DNA of 64,000 nucleotides, taken from Ligilactobacillus agilis DSM 20509 (lineage in GTDB: Bacteria > Bacillota > Bacilli > Lactobacillales > Lactobacillaceae). Each line of letters opens with the position of its first letter. The stretch's first letter is position 1. The notes beneath the pieces are model-generated. The model saw nothing but the letters and a program-made list of their open reading frames with translations. It did not search any database and was not told the origin of the DNA. The stretch lies in assembly GCF_001436215.1 (NCBI RefSeq), contig NZ_AYYP01000072.1, forward strand, positions 15,149 to 79,148, read 5' to 3'. Both the position numbers and the translations under genes were made by a program. Shown in pieces: positions 40,712 to 63,178 of this stretch.

Positions 40712-40805
40712 GTTAAGAACGAATTTAGGTCAGAAAAATAAAAATTGTAAACAACTTTTTTGGCTAAAGACAAGGTAGTCTTTAATCGTTGTTTGTTGCC
40801 ATTTT

Positions 40806-41170
40806 AAGGCAATTTCTTTTCTAAGCAAAAGCGCCTGGAATTGGTAGACCGTTTTAATAATGACCAAACTCAAGTCTTTTTAATTTTGCTTAAAGCAGGG
40901 GGGACAGGGTTGAACCTAGTTGGAGCTGATGTAGTTATCCACTATGATCCTTGGTGGAATCAGGCGGCGCAAAATCAAGCTACCGACCGGGCTCACCGAA
41001 TTGGTCAGGAGCATAAGGTGACGGTTTATAACTTGATAAGTAAGGGTACGATTGAAGAAAAGATTTTAGAGATGCAAAAAAATAAGCAACAACTAGCAAA
41101 TAATATCTTAGGTAATGACCGAGTAAATAGTTCTAACTTGAGTAAAGAAGATTTGCTAGGATTGCTATAA
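40806..41170 (+). pseudogene. C-terminal fragment of an SNF2-family helicase
   Basis: The frame is open from 40806, just after a TAA, and encodes about 120 residues that match only the end of SNF2/Swi2 ATPases: the helicase motif V region LLKAGGTGLNLVGADVV, motif VI ATDRAHRIGQEHKV, and the C-terminal GTIEEKILEMQKNK. The preceding 900 or so residues, including Walker A and DEAH, are absent. No start codon or ribosome binding site is present, except a TTG within. It is a decayed remnant at the edge of the island; upstream 40712-40805 holds nothing recognisable. Confidence 0.88.
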
Positions 41171-41250: not shown

Positions 41251-41275
41251 TAAAATTTTTCTCATTTTGCATTAA

Positions 41276-41303
41276 TTGGCTAACTGCTTTGCGTATTTAA
41301 ATA
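41276..41303 (+). promoter_or_regulatory. Candidate promoter of the Rpn/CD-NTase fusion, shared with the second Rpn gene
   Basis: TTGGCT and TAAATA are separated by 16 bases, followed by GTGAAGGG. The second Rpn gene has TTGCTG-16-TATAAT followed by GAAGGG and shares TTTGCGTAT in the spacer, so the upstream regions are homologous. The -10 is weaker here. Confidence 0.45.
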
Positions 41304-41361
41304 GTGAAGGGAAAAATATTTCATTACCCTGCAGATTTTTATATAATAAGGAGGAAAGCTA

Positions 41362-42882
41362 ATGCTCTCACAAAAAGAAGCCCTTAGGCGCAAGTTTGCC
41401 CAGGCGGACTTTACTGATGACGTCATGTTTAGCTTAATAATGTCTCAGCCCGAAATTTGTAAGCGGTTCTTACAGGCGGTATTACCTGCCTATGATTTCG
41501 ACCACATTAAGGTGACGCCCCAAAAATATCTTAAAACTAGCTATGTTACCCGGGCGGGGCGTTTGGATTTACTATGCACCGATGAAAATGGGACACAATT
41601 TAATGTCGAGTTACAGATGGTAGATGAGCATAACCTAGCCAAGCGTTCGCGGTATTACCACGCCTTATTGGCTAACAACATGTTAGCTCCCGGCGAGGAT
41701 TATCAAAATCTAAAGGAAACCTACGTGATTTTCTTGTATGGCTTTGACCCCTTCGGCCTAGGTTGGGCGGTCACCGACTACCAAATGACCGCCAACCATG
41801 GCAAGCACATTTTGGGCGATGGAACTCATAAGCTTATTTTAAACGCTAAGGGGGATTGGCGCGAAGTCAATGACGAACTCAAAGGAATTTTTCAGTTAGT
41901 TTTTAAAGGAGATGGACAAGTTGTTGTAATCTCCTTTAGAGATGGAGTTATTGAATTAGTACCAGGGTTCGAACAATCTGATGGGAATTATAAATATCCA
42001 GATTCAAATAATGGAGGATCCTGGAAAATAACGAAACCTATTCCAGAGCAAGAAGAAACAACTAATATGAGTGATAAAACTAACAGCCATTATAAGTATT
42101 TAAGTCAGTTATTACGTAAGTGGAAAAATAATATAGGATTTAAATTTAAGGGCTTGTTAATTGATACAATGGTTAAGAAGTTTATTGATGCTGATGAGCA
42201 ACGAGAACAAATTTCTTTTTCTGATTATAGTGTTTTATTGGTAGATTTATTTGAATTTTTATCAAAAGAAGATGCTGAGAAAGCTTACTGGTTTGCCTTA
42301 GGTAGTAATCAACAAATATCTAATGATGATAATGGAAAGTTTATCAAGAAAGCGAAAAAAGCATATAACAAGTTAAAAGATATAGGAGATGAAGCTGAAT
42401 TAGAAAAAGAATATAGAAATTTATTTGGGAGTGATTTTGCTAAAGAAAGTGAATCTCTACAGAACAAAGCGCCTAATGAGGAATTTGTAGAGAAGAAGTT
42501 TATAATTGACATACGATATAATATGAAATTAGACTGTACAATTACACAAAATGGTTTTAGACCTAAGCGACTTAGAGATTTTTTGGCTAAACACTGGAAA
42601 TTAAAAATAAATAAAACGCTCGAATTTGAGGTAGTGAATAATGATATTCCCTCAGATTTATTGCCCAATGTGAAATGGTACTGGAAGGTTAGAAATGTTG
42701 GTATTGAAGCCAAAAAGCGAAATAAAGAACGAGGTCAAATATTTATAGATAGAAAAATTAGAAGAGAAGAGACAGATTTTGACGGGAATCATTATGTGGA
42801 ATGTTATGCTGTTGTTGATAATATTGTAATTGCGCGAGATAGAATTAGCGTTCCAATTAGTAAATTAACCGGGAAAGATTAA
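41362..42882 (+). CDS. In-frame fusion: Rpn-family nuclease domain + C-terminal CD-NTase (SMODS/AGS-C)
   Basis: Residues 1-180 are an Rpn (PD-(D/E)XK transposase-like) nuclease domain with FTDDVMF, Asp69 in GRLDLLC, and the VELQ motif (Glu83, Gln85). They match the second Rpn gene at 62255 closely up to KGIFQL. From residue 181 the sequence switches to a CBASS nucleotidyltransferase: DGQVVVISF, IELVPGF (Glu198, place of the third carboxylate), YPDSNNGGSWK, LRKWKNN, the SMODS helical half, and from about 376 an AGS-C sensor (WYWKVRNVG, RGQIFIDR, HYVECYAVV). The NTase core with GS and paired Asp is missing, so cyclase activity is not expected. The base composition drops sharply to AT-rich after the joint near 41905. 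AAGGAGGAAAG precedes the ATG. It could be a recombination scar or a working chimera. Confidence 0.85.
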   Translation: MLSQKEALRRKFAQADFTDDVMFSLIMSQPEICKRFLQAVLPAYDFDHIKVTPQKYLKTSYVTRAGRLDLLCTDENGTQFNVELQMVDEHNLAKRSRYYHALLANNMLAPGEDYQNLKETYVIFLYGFDPFGLGWAVTDYQMTANHGKHILGDGTHKLILNAKGDWREVNDELKGIFQLVFKGDGQVVVISFRDGVIELVPGFEQSDGNYKYPDSNNGGSWKITKPIPEQEETTNMSDKTNSHYKYLSQLLRKWKNNIGFKFKGLLIDTMVKKFIDADEQREQISFSDYSVLLVDLFEFLSKEDAEKAYWFALGSNQQISNDDNGKFIKKAKKAYNKLKDIGDEAELEKEYRNLFGSDFAKESESLQNKAPNEEFVEKKFIIDIRYNMKLDCTITQNGFRPKRLRDFLAKHWKLKINKTLEFEVVNNDIPSDLLPNVKWYWKVRNVGIEAKKRNKERGQIFIDRKIRREETDFDGNHYVECYAVVDNIVIARDRISVPISKLTGKD

Positions 42883-43507
42883 GCCCCTTGTTTTTATGCT
42901 ATTTTAATAAAAGAAAATCTTGGTAAGTTGGAGTTTTTAAAAGTAGTTAACTTATACGGCGACCATTTTTACTTGCTAAATCGTAGCTTAGAAGTTGGCG
43001 ATAAATCTATGAGCGGTATGATTAATTAATAACGTAACTAGTGATAGCGTCTTGTGTTTTTGCTAAGTATAGATGATTTAATTATACGAATTCTTTTAGG
43101 AAATAGATTTTTCGGTTCTAATACCAAAAGTAGCTATGCTTTGTAAAGGTAGGTATTCTTAGATAATTTGCTAATGATGGGAATTTTTTTTGACTCCAAA
43201 AGTAAATTGGGACAGATTTATTTACAAAACGGCCTAATGATAGCGATAACAGGCTGTGTTTGGAATTAGATGGCAAGTTGTAAGTGGCTCAGAATCATAG
43301 GTCAGACTGCACCGGTAATATTGCTTATGAAGCATTCTACACCTTACTATATCAACAATTTTATAGTATTTTTAGATAGAGGTAGTCTCTTTAAGAATGT
43401 ACGATAAGAAATAGACTTTTGATTATTTTTTATATAATACACGTTCTTTGTGAATCTATACGCAAACATAAGAAAGTAGCCTGTAAAATTTAGTTAATTA
43501 TTTGTCT
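42883..43507 (+). other. AT-rich non-coding stretch after the fusion gene
   Basis: About 625 bases hold no convincing gene. Directly after the fusion stop the same frame stays open for 45 codons (to a TAA near 43027) with peptide-like content (KLEFLKVVNLYGDHFYLLN) but no usable start; it may be the relic of a neighbour gene such as a lost CBASS effector, which I cannot identify. Short phrases resembling the sequence after the second Rpn gene (TGATAGCGTC at about 43039, TGATAGCG at about 43237) suggest shared ancestry of the 3' flanks. TATAAT occurs near 43432. Confidence 0.4.
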
Positions 43508-43537
43508 TAGCCAGAAAAGCCTATGCTTTTCTGGCTA
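43508..43537. terminator. Perfect inverted repeat, possible bidirectional terminator
   Basis: TAGCCAGAAAAGC and GCTTTTCTGGCTA form 13 base pairs with loop CTAT. T-rich sequence flanks it on both strands, between the fusion gene and the convergent helix-turn-helix gene. Confidence 0.55.
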
Positions 43538-43566
43538 AATTATTACTAGTTTAAAATTTTGAATAA

Positions 43567-44343
43567 TCATACTTCGCTAAAAGAAGCGGTTAAATCCGCT
43601 TCTTTTAGTAGGAGACTATTAAAGAAATTTACAATAGTGTTCTTTATTTCAACTATGAATTTGTTTAATAAGGGGTAAAAAAGCTTGGTAACGCCAAGCT
43701 TCTTTACCGCTAACTTACTTAGTTGAGAACTAGTAGAGGGACTGGAAGTAAAGCTAGTTTTAATATTATTAGGCTCAGTCTTAAAGTTAGTTTTAACAAC
43801 TCTGGATTCATTTCTATAGTCGGCTTTATTAGTGGTGGTGCTATTAGCAAATTCTTTATTAGCGTTTACTTTAAGAGGGGTGGAGATATTTGCTTGAGTA
43901 GGAGCTGATTTGGCCTGGGAGGCAAGGTTAGGGTTGTCTTTGAAGCCGGCTAAAAGTAGGGCGGTAAATTCGTCTGCAGGCAGGGGATTTCTGATGTAGT
44001 CGCGCTTAGATGAAACCGAGTTAGCGGTAACTTTTTTAGCTTCCTTAGTGCTTGGACTGACCTCAGGGGTAGGTGTTTTTTGATGAGGGGTAGCTGGCAA
44101 GATTTTAAGTAGGCGGGGGATGGCTTTGATGACCTTGACGAGGCCGTAGTCGATTAGGGCTTTGAACCAGTGGGAGGCGGTGCATAGGCTGACGTTATAA
44201 AGAGTGGCGATTTCTTGGTTAGATAGGGCGCAGAGGGCGTTTTCGTCCATGCGGGCGGTTAGTTCGCTGTAAAGTAGTTTTTCGTTGGCGGTGAGGTTGT
44301 GATCGTAGCGGATGGTAGCGTCTAAAGTAGTTTGTAAGTTCAT
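43567..44343 (-). CDS. Helix-turn-helix protein with low-complexity tail
   Basis: Residues 1-75 form a winged-helix-like domain (RYDHNLTANEKLLYSEL, SNQEIATLYNVSLCTASHWF, LIDYGLVKV). It resembles the N-terminus of phage and plasmid replication proteins and is clearly related to the 108-residue protein at 45613. Residues 80-220 are a Ser/Thr/Asn/Lys-rich linker of low complexity and the last 35 are hydrophobic and amphipathic. It probably binds DNA; a role in element replication or regulation is inferred. AAGGAGCATTTTTT precedes the ATG at 44343. The last codons contain a perfect 13-bp inverted repeat (43577-43608). Confidence 0.65.
   Translation of the reverse strand: MNLQTTLDATIRYDHNLTANEKLLYSELTARMDENALCALSNQEIATLYNVSLCTASHWFKALIDYGLVKVIKAIPRLLKILPATPHQKTPTPEVSPSTKEAKKVTANSVSSKRDYIRNPLPADEFTALLLAGFKDNPNLASQAKSAPTQANISTPLKVNANKEFANSTTTNKADYRNESRVVKTNFKTEPNNIKTSFTSSPSTSSQLSKLAVKKLGVTKLFYPLLNKFIVEIKNTIVNFFNSLLLKEADLTASFSEV
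43577..43608. repeat. Inverted repeat inside the 3' end of the helix-turn-helix gene
   Basis: CTAAAAGAAGCGG (43577-43589) and CCGCTTCTTTTAG (43596-43608) are perfect arms around a 6-base loop, spanning codons near the C-terminus. It could act as a terminator built into coding sequence. Confidence 0.7.
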
Positions 44344-62095: not shown

Positions 62096-62171
62096 TAACT
62101 TTGAATTTTATCTAGGTTGGATAGTAGGGATAATTTGTGCAGTAAAAAAGTTTGTCATTTTTTGAATTAAT

Positions 62172-62199
62172 TTGCTGTTCGTTTGCGTATATCTATAAT
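62172..62199 (+). promoter_or_regulatory. Promoter of the Rpn gene
   Basis: TTGCTG and TATAAT are separated by 16 bases and followed by GAAGGG. The region is homologous to that upstream of the fusion gene at 41362. Confidence 0.6.
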
Positions 62200-62254
62200 G
62201 AAGGGTAAATTATTCTCTTTGCCCTCCAAATTTTATATAATAAAGGAGAAGCAA

Positions 62255-63178
62255 ATGGTAAGTAAGCAAAAAATACGGCAAAAACTGGCCCGGGCCGACT
62301 TTACCGACGACGTCATGTTTGGCTTAGTCATGTCTCAGTTAGAAATCTGTCGTAAGTTCTTAAAGGCAGTCCTACCCCAACACGATTTTACCAAGCTTAA
62401 AATCGTTGACCAAAGCCACTTAAAAACTGACTATCTGTCTAAGGCGGGCCGCTTAGACATCCACTGTACCGACGCTTATGGCAACCAATTTGACATCGAG
62501 CTACAGATGACCAACGAGCATAACGTTGCCCAGCGGTCCAAGTATTATCACGCCTTGATGGCCAACCACATGCTGACGGCTGGTGAAGAATATCAAGCCT
62601 TAAAGGCGACCTACGTCATCTTCTTGTGTCCCGCCAGTTTCACCGACGCCGACCAGGCCATCACCCATTACGAAATAGTCTCAAGGCAAGGTAACCACCT
62701 AAATGATGGAACCCACACGCTGATTTTAAATGCCAGTGGGAATTGGGCAGGCGTCAGTGACGAACTCAAGGGCATTTTTCAGTTACTCTTAAGGCAACCG
62801 GCTTCGTTTGGAAAGTTGGGCCCACAAATTATGGACAAAATTGATGAGATTAAGCACAGCAAGATAGGAGGGCGCAAGTATATGGAATTAACAGGAGCAT
62901 TTTGGCAGGACGCTAGAGAAGCGGGTATCAAGATTGGTGAACGTCGTGGTAAAAAGGCCGGGATTAAGGAAGGGCGCAAAGAAGGACGTAAAGAGGGTCG
63001 CAAGCAAGGCCGTAGGGAAGGAACCGATGAAACCATCATCAAACTCATCCCCGACCTAGTGGCCCTGACCAATGATCGCCAAGCCGTCATCAATATCTTG
63101 ATGAAGAAGATGAATCTGAACCAAGCCCAAGCAGAGAGCTACTACAAGCGGGCGATGGAAAGGGAAAAACGGGACTAG
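62255..63178 (+). CDS. Rpn-family recombination-promoting nuclease / putative transposase
   Basis: The 307-residue protein is a complete Rpn (PD-(D/E)XK) member: ADFTDDVMFG, Asp68 in GRLDIHC, Glu82 and Gln84 in DIELQ, SKYYHALMANHML, and DGTHTLILNASGNW. After the nuclease domain comes a linker and tandem GRKEG repeats (about residues 240-260), then a helical tail. Rpn proteins cut DNA and promote RecA-independent recombination; variable repeated tails are usual in the family. The ATG at 62255 follows AAAGGAGAAG. It is the intact paralogue of the N-terminal part of the fusion at 41362 and lies between two copies of one terminator. Confidence 0.9.
   Translation: MVSKQKIRQKLARADFTDDVMFGLVMSQLEICRKFLKAVLPQHDFTKLKIVDQSHLKTDYLSKAGRLDIHCTDAYGNQFDIELQMTNEHNVAQRSKYYHALMANHMLTAGEEYQALKATYVIFLCPASFTDADQAITHYEIVSRQGNHLNDGTHTLILNASGNWAGVSDELKGIFQLLLRQPASFGKLGPQIMDKIDEIKHSKIGGRKYMELTGAFWQDAREAGIKIGERRGKKAGIKEGRKEGRKEGRKQGRREGTDETIIKLIPDLVALTNDRQAVINILMKKMNLNQAQAESYYKRAMEREKRD

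Follow-up and report, generated by a model that had tools for sequence, protein, structure and literature searches.

An uninterrupted open reading frame of 506 codons in Ligilactobacillus agilis DSM 20509 (41362-42882, plus strand; product P0001) was confirmed as real and joins the front of an Rpn-type PD-(D/E)XK nuclease to the rear of a CD-NTase. The frame is very probably the recent scar of an illegitimate deletion (or insertion-deletion) in a SLATT/CD-NTase operon, which kept the reading frame and replaced the tail of the Rpn gene. The preliminary description of the locus had offered two alternatives, a deletion scar and a nuclease that replaced the cyclase core; the former turned out to be the better supported, while the latter gained no positive support. 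Positions refer to the window, i.e., the whole stretch of 64,000 nucleotides that was analysed, in which the following features were recognized:

40763-40834, minus strand: short stretch 88% identical to the DNA 5' of two other Rpn-type genes (C11, C23), by eye resembling an Rpn N-terminus
40841-41170, plus strand: C-terminal remnant of an SNF2-type helicase (Helicase_C 58-110 of 110; a 591-aa ORF encodes a relative in L036)
41252-41361, plus strand: leader common to Rpn paralogues (41252-41353 with 62145-62248; 41271-41361 with L003), containing AGGAGG, which resembles a ribosome-binding site
41362-42882, plus strand: chimeric ORF P0001, 506 aa
41362-41904, plus strand: Rpn-type PD-(D/E)XK nuclease half, residues 1-181, with D19 or D20, D69, E83, and Q85 kept and the usual C-terminal tail gone
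41901-41905, plus strand: Rpn/CD-NTase joint, from DNA alignments of Rpn paralogues and CD-NTases
41905-42063, plus strand: SMODS nucleotidyltransferase remnant, model positions 110-161 of 164 (Pfam)
42478-42861, plus strand: complete AGS_C domain, residues 373-500 (Pfam)

The helicase remnant, within window positions 40763-41170, is a second truncated gene that adjoins Rpn-like sequence. Downstream, a stem-loop of 14 pairs at 43507-43538 lies where a low-GC stretch gives way to the following gene block, and it matches a scan for terminator-like structures.

Structure of the reading frame

Both halves of P0001 match domain models with scores far beyond chance. The Rpn domain described earlier at residues 1-180 was borne out by PDDEXK_2 (PF12784; residues 30-129, E 2e-17, Pfam), by the Rpn family model TIGR01784 (residues 18-176, E 5e-24, NCBIfam), and by 57% identity of residues 2-181 to the paralogue encoded at 62255-62791 (P0002). 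The conserved Rpn domain is incomplete, since TIGR01784 is covered only at positions 1-164 of 273. In the second half, SMODS (PF18144) matches residues 182-234 with only model positions 110-161 of 164 (E 3e-10, Pfam), AGS_C (PF18134) matches residues 373-500 with model positions 4-129 of 129 (E 4e-37, Pfam), and the PADLOC cyclase model PDLC00796 matches residues 181-501 with model positions 106-431 of 432 (E 4e-116), whereas four unbroken relatives match PDLC00796 from position 1, 11, 5, and 1. Judged from these alignments, residues 182-506 correspond to a SMODS/AGS-C CD-NTase without its N-terminal quarter. The earlier assignment of this part to the CD-NTases and of a full AGS-C domain within it is thus correct, but its start shifts from residue 181 to residue 182. 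A PDB sequence search with P0001 gave 0 matches at E 0.01, and structure prediction reached mean pLDDT values of 45.0 and 43.1 from alignments of only 5 and 4 rows, too low for either model to be usable.

The joint was located by DNA alignment. Matches of Rpn paralogues that reach it stop at window positions 41898-41903, and CD-NTase matches that reach it start at 41903-41908. Two other Rpn copies, L004 and L007, agree with the window in each of the 26 bases that end at 41900 and diverge from 41901. A position further to the left was considered and rejected: the protein alignments of L020, L021, G473, L048, and PDLC00792 reach back into the Rpn half, to about residues 152-168, and these starts were read as chance similarity because the DNA of L004 and L007 is free of mismatches for 26 bases up to 41900.

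The base composition changes at the joint, as had been noticed before. For the first, second, and third codon positions, GC content is 0.519/0.309/0.525 up to the joint and 0.418/0.286/0.218 beyond it. Third-position GC of the cyclase half (0.218) differs from that of the Rpn half (0.525) and of the paralogue at 62255 (0.577), suggesting that the cyclase half is foreign in origin and not yet adapted. On its cyclase side the joint falls inside the SMODS (NTase) domain, at model position 110 of 164, and not at a domain border, which would not be expected of a functional domain swap; on its Rpn side it lies close to residue 176, where the TIGR01784 match stops.

It is extremely unlikely that the frame is an assembly artefact joining two unrelated places. 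The genome is a draft of 72 contigs with 13 PDDEXK_2 matches (11 above the cut-off), which would favor such an error, but the joint lies inside a contig of 201,155 bases and the cyclase half is present only once in the genome. Repeat collapse is also unlikely, because other Rpn copies reach at most about 70% DNA identity over long stretches (at most 75% over 60 bases).

The nuclease half and its paralogues

According to a by-eye comparison with the residues D11, D63, E82, and Q84 of RpnA, as given in the accessible part of PMC5350276, P0001 keeps the PD-(D/E)XK signature (D19 or D20, D69, E83, Q85). The paralogue at 62255 has a tail with charged four-residue repeats (KEGR), which is absent from P0001. 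An excerpt of PMC10327210 describes Rpn proteins as phage-defence toxins that are blocked by their own variable C-terminal domains, and Rpn tails (RpnS) as separately translated antitoxins that vary by four-residue repeats. The nuclease half of P0001 could therefore still be expressed and active, with the cyclase remnant as a passive tail that removed RpnS-type antitoxin control. We consider this unlikely. The leader with AGGAGG and the signature residues are intact, and the repeats lost from P0001 resemble those of the RpnS tails in that excerpt (PMC10327210); however, loss of an antitoxin should select against an active toxin, truncation of the RpnD tail lowered activity in E. coli according to the text available from PMC5350276, and the genome has other Rpn copies that are broken or carry deletions, such as L004, which has two stops, and L006.

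The Rpn copy in L006 (G000:C27; ORF 1456-2040) aligns with the 62255 gene in three blocks of 94%, 96%, and 81% DNA identity, and lacks 165 nt and 147 nt relative to it, both in frame. The first gap (165 nt) has an 8-base repeat at its ends, while the ends of the second (147 nt) are less clean due to the diverged flanking tail. The second gap starts at codon 170 of the paralogue, corresponding to residue 172 of P0001, about nine codons before the joint. RpnA was reported to be a non-specific endonuclease that promotes RecA-independent recombination (PMC5350276, in part), and on this basis it is possible that Rpn itself causes such deletions.

Two further observations were made on the Rpn copies. 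L006 also lacks two 12-nt units of the repeat tail of the 62255 gene, and these contractions agree with the four-residue repeat variation of Rpn tails described in the excerpt of PMC10327210. The copy in L003 (G000:C23) reads NVKLQ in place of NVELQ, i.e., K replaces the conserved catalytic E, and it is probably an inactive nuclease.

The cyclase half and its missing core

In intact relatives, the motif VGSxGRxT...SDxDxLF stands ahead of the point at which the fusion starts. P0001 lacks the first ~105-110 cyclase residues, including this GS...DxD catalytic core; its absence had been pointed out earlier and agrees with both the partial SMODS match and the core seen in the relatives. Outside the ORF, nothing in the window matches the missing N-terminus (E 0.01). 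P0001 keeps E198 (IELVP), which we take to be the place of the third catalytic carboxylate of the cyclase. On sequence grounds, P0001, if made, should be unable to cyclise nucleotides; it resembles the CBASS CD-NTases in its C-terminal lobe and AGS_C domain and departs from them in the GS...DxD motif.

AGS-C had been regarded as a sensor domain that could serve a nuclease directly. In DncV, according to the part of PMC7288161 that was available, the active site is placed between SMODS and AGS-C, and AGS-C supplies some of its residues, which makes a free-standing sensor role doubtful.

The intact cyclases of the same genus, in G010 and G015, belong to other species and are only 46% identical over the cyclase half. 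In the Pilibacter sister (L018, 5674-6968), the CD-NTase is split over two overlapping frames, owing to a genuine frameshift or to an error in the sequence.

Effector genes around related cyclases

The surroundings of 15 distinct cyclase loci (L015, L016, L018-L026, L048-L051; duplicates counted once) were compared. SLATT lies directly upstream of the cyclase in 12 of the 15, 11 by BLASTP (among them L016, with a partial match only) and L021 by annotation alone. In L050 it follows the cyclase; in L048 and L049 no SLATT was recognised. Pfam assigned all four SLATT proteins submitted to SLATT_4.

No match to SLATT was found in the window with three SLATT queries at E 1e-3, and none to SLATT_4 (PF18186) in the window's genome, with G015 (full) and G010 (partial) as positive controls; two of the 26 genus genomes match this model. 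Among the 26 genus genomes, profile search detected SMODS in four and AGS_C in three. Each occurs once in the window's genome, in the P0001 ORF, and the search with G010 and G015 as positive controls found no second copy of either, within the limit that CD-NTases too distant from the SMODS model would be missed. The idea that an intact CD-NTase of P0001's kind or a SLATT gene persists elsewhere in the genome was rejected by these searches; a further search, which lacked a positive control, also detected none. Comparison with ORFs around the relatives revealed no convincing effector remnant in 42883-43570 or upstream; the best weak match covers 25 residues (E 0.006 in a tiny database). The P0001 locus has no adjacent cognate effector of the kind seen in its relatives, as judged by a systematic search that covered SLATT.

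An analogous locus exists in G010, where the front of SLATT has been lost and the rest is joined to unrelated fragments upstream of an intact CD-NTase. Directly before the intact CD-NTase (L055 1205-4184; G010:C157) stands a row of gene remnants that includes the SLATT C-terminus; the other remnants are presumably an IS66-like transposase and an HNH-type fragment. In L024 (G137:C49), a minus-strand open frame from 3884 carries SLATT sequence and spans 372 codons from stop to stop, against 187-214 codons in the other full-length SLATT frames; it is possibly a SLATT fusion.

Distribution of the fusion

No second Rpn::AGS-C fusion was found among 26 genus, 397 family, 395 order, and 398 phylum genomes, samples which overlap and contain one genome per species, a small part of the known species. 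Counting the window's own genome, the cyclase half matched in 4 of the 26 genus genomes (E <= 0.001; G001 weakly) and in 12 of the 397 family genomes (E <= 1e-10), and whole P0001 matched in 3 of the 395 order and 4 of the 398 phylum genomes at E <= 1e-30, a limit that could miss a very diverged fusion. Loci L001-L050 contain 30 ORFs with a cyclase match; the five that also match the Rpn half are all copies of the window's own gene.

Mobile and viral sequences gave the same picture. Matches occurred in 209 plasmid records and 9 phage records; no plasmid among the matches listed, and no phage record, had 80% of the query in one place. The viral contigs contained 0 exact matches to the joint and no relative of P0001; two distant cyclase relatives (L056, L057) were detected there, with no Rpn match in their retrieved DNA. 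The search for homologues spanning both halves, which the preliminary description had proposed, thus returned only the gene itself from the genome, plasmid, and phage samples, and a conserved Rpn::AGS-C family was rejected. The open-licence literature searched yielded no published Rpn or PDDEXK nuclease fused to a CD-NTase or AGS-C.

Age of the fusion and possible function

The cyclase half violates 0 of the 42 columns that are invariant in the other sequences (281 ungapped columns). Its terminal branch (0.18) is shorter than that of the Pilibacter sister (0.34), but a frame change divides that sister gene in two. The dN/dS check on the cyclase half gave dN of 0.20-0.36 and dS from 1.3 to infinite, with synonymous sites near or at saturation, and covers mostly the time before the fusion. 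The absence of decay speaks against a long period of neutral decay but mostly reflects pre-fusion time. The open frame of about 325 codons behind the joint had been put forward as notable; it is weak evidence, as random joints keep frame in one third of cases, and a simulated unselected cyclase half, with indels at one tenth of substitutions, remained uninterrupted in 32% of runs once it had gathered 0.01 substitutions per site. At 0.03 substitutions per site the fraction in the same simulation fell to 3.4%. From the lack of decay and the simulation, the fusion is either young or its product is still selected.

P0001 might instead be a functional one-protein defence effector: AGS-C, together with what is left of the cyclase lobe, would recognise a ligand or a phage component and control the Rpn nuclease directly, with no second messenger. 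This is very unlikely. Its AGS_C is complete, but AGS-C forms part of the active-site cleft in DncV (PMC7288161, in part) and the NTase domain next to it is incomplete, since the cyclase part starts mid-domain. The nuclease signature is kept and the cyclase half is undecayed, though such conservation is mostly older than the fusion and is not attributable to it. On its nuclease side the joint falls near the end of the TIGR01784 match, and a tail swap is thinkable given that Rpn toxins are blocked by variable C-terminal domains (excerpt of PMC10327210); nevertheless, no sample searched contained a second instance. A messenger-free derivative of CBASS, whose cyclase lobe and AGS-C would bind a phage-derived or nucleotide ligand and switch a Rpn nuclease that has lost its antitoxin tail, is highly improbable.

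Origin of the locus and significance

A recent deletion scar is favored by the absence of a second fusion, the absence of SLATT_4 from the genome, the cut through the middle of a cyclase domain, and the truncated sequences alongside. It is also supported by the in-frame deletions of L006, the SLATT truncation in G010, and the contrast in codon composition between the halves. Comparison with these loci indicates precedents for frame-keeping loss in the window's genome (L006) and for truncation at such a locus in the genus (G010). Counted against a scar are the lack of decay in the cyclase half, the kept nuclease signature, the 325 codons open after the joint, and the three of 15 relatives without SLATT directly upstream.

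In the scenario that we infer, a horizontally acquired SLATT/CD-NTase operon would have lain downstream of an Rpn gene, or have been invaded by one. Most likely, a single event would then have removed the SLATT gene, approximately the first 105-110 cyclase codons with GS...DxD, and the C-terminal tail of Rpn, and joined the remainder in frame, from Rpn codon 181 to cyclase codon ~106-110. The product would probably be without function, and at most an Rpn nuclease domain whose own regulatory tail is replaced by a foreign and probably poorly folded one.

The locus illustrates the way in which defence loci can come apart. Frame-keeping deletions occur in at least two Rpn genes of this genome (P0001 and L006), and in-frame deletion scars of this kind can mimic new architectures for domain scanners. 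If functional, P0001 would amount to a defence protein of new design, yet none of the results favors that.

Comparison with known systems

Compared with the SMODS/AGS-C CD-NTases of CBASS (PDLC00796; PF18144 plus PF18134, with SLATT_4, PF18186, as effector), residues 182-506 of P0001 share 38-63% identity with unbroken members and 70% with the split Pilibacter CD-NTase, over 281 ungapped columns. It differs from these cyclases in lacking the N-terminal ~105-110 residues, and its genome has no SLATT_4 match. Residues 1-181 match the Rpn/YhgA-like PD-(D/E)XK nucleases (TIGR01784, PF12784) and keep D/D/E-x-Q; unlike those nucleases, P0001 has cyclase sequence in place of the remaining Rpn part, the variable tail, and its four-residue repeats. 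A parallel within the genome is L006, likewise an Rpn gene with frame-keeping deletions, one of them in nearly the same place as the joint of P0001, but L006 joins Rpn to Rpn, whereas P0001 joins Rpn to a foreign gene.
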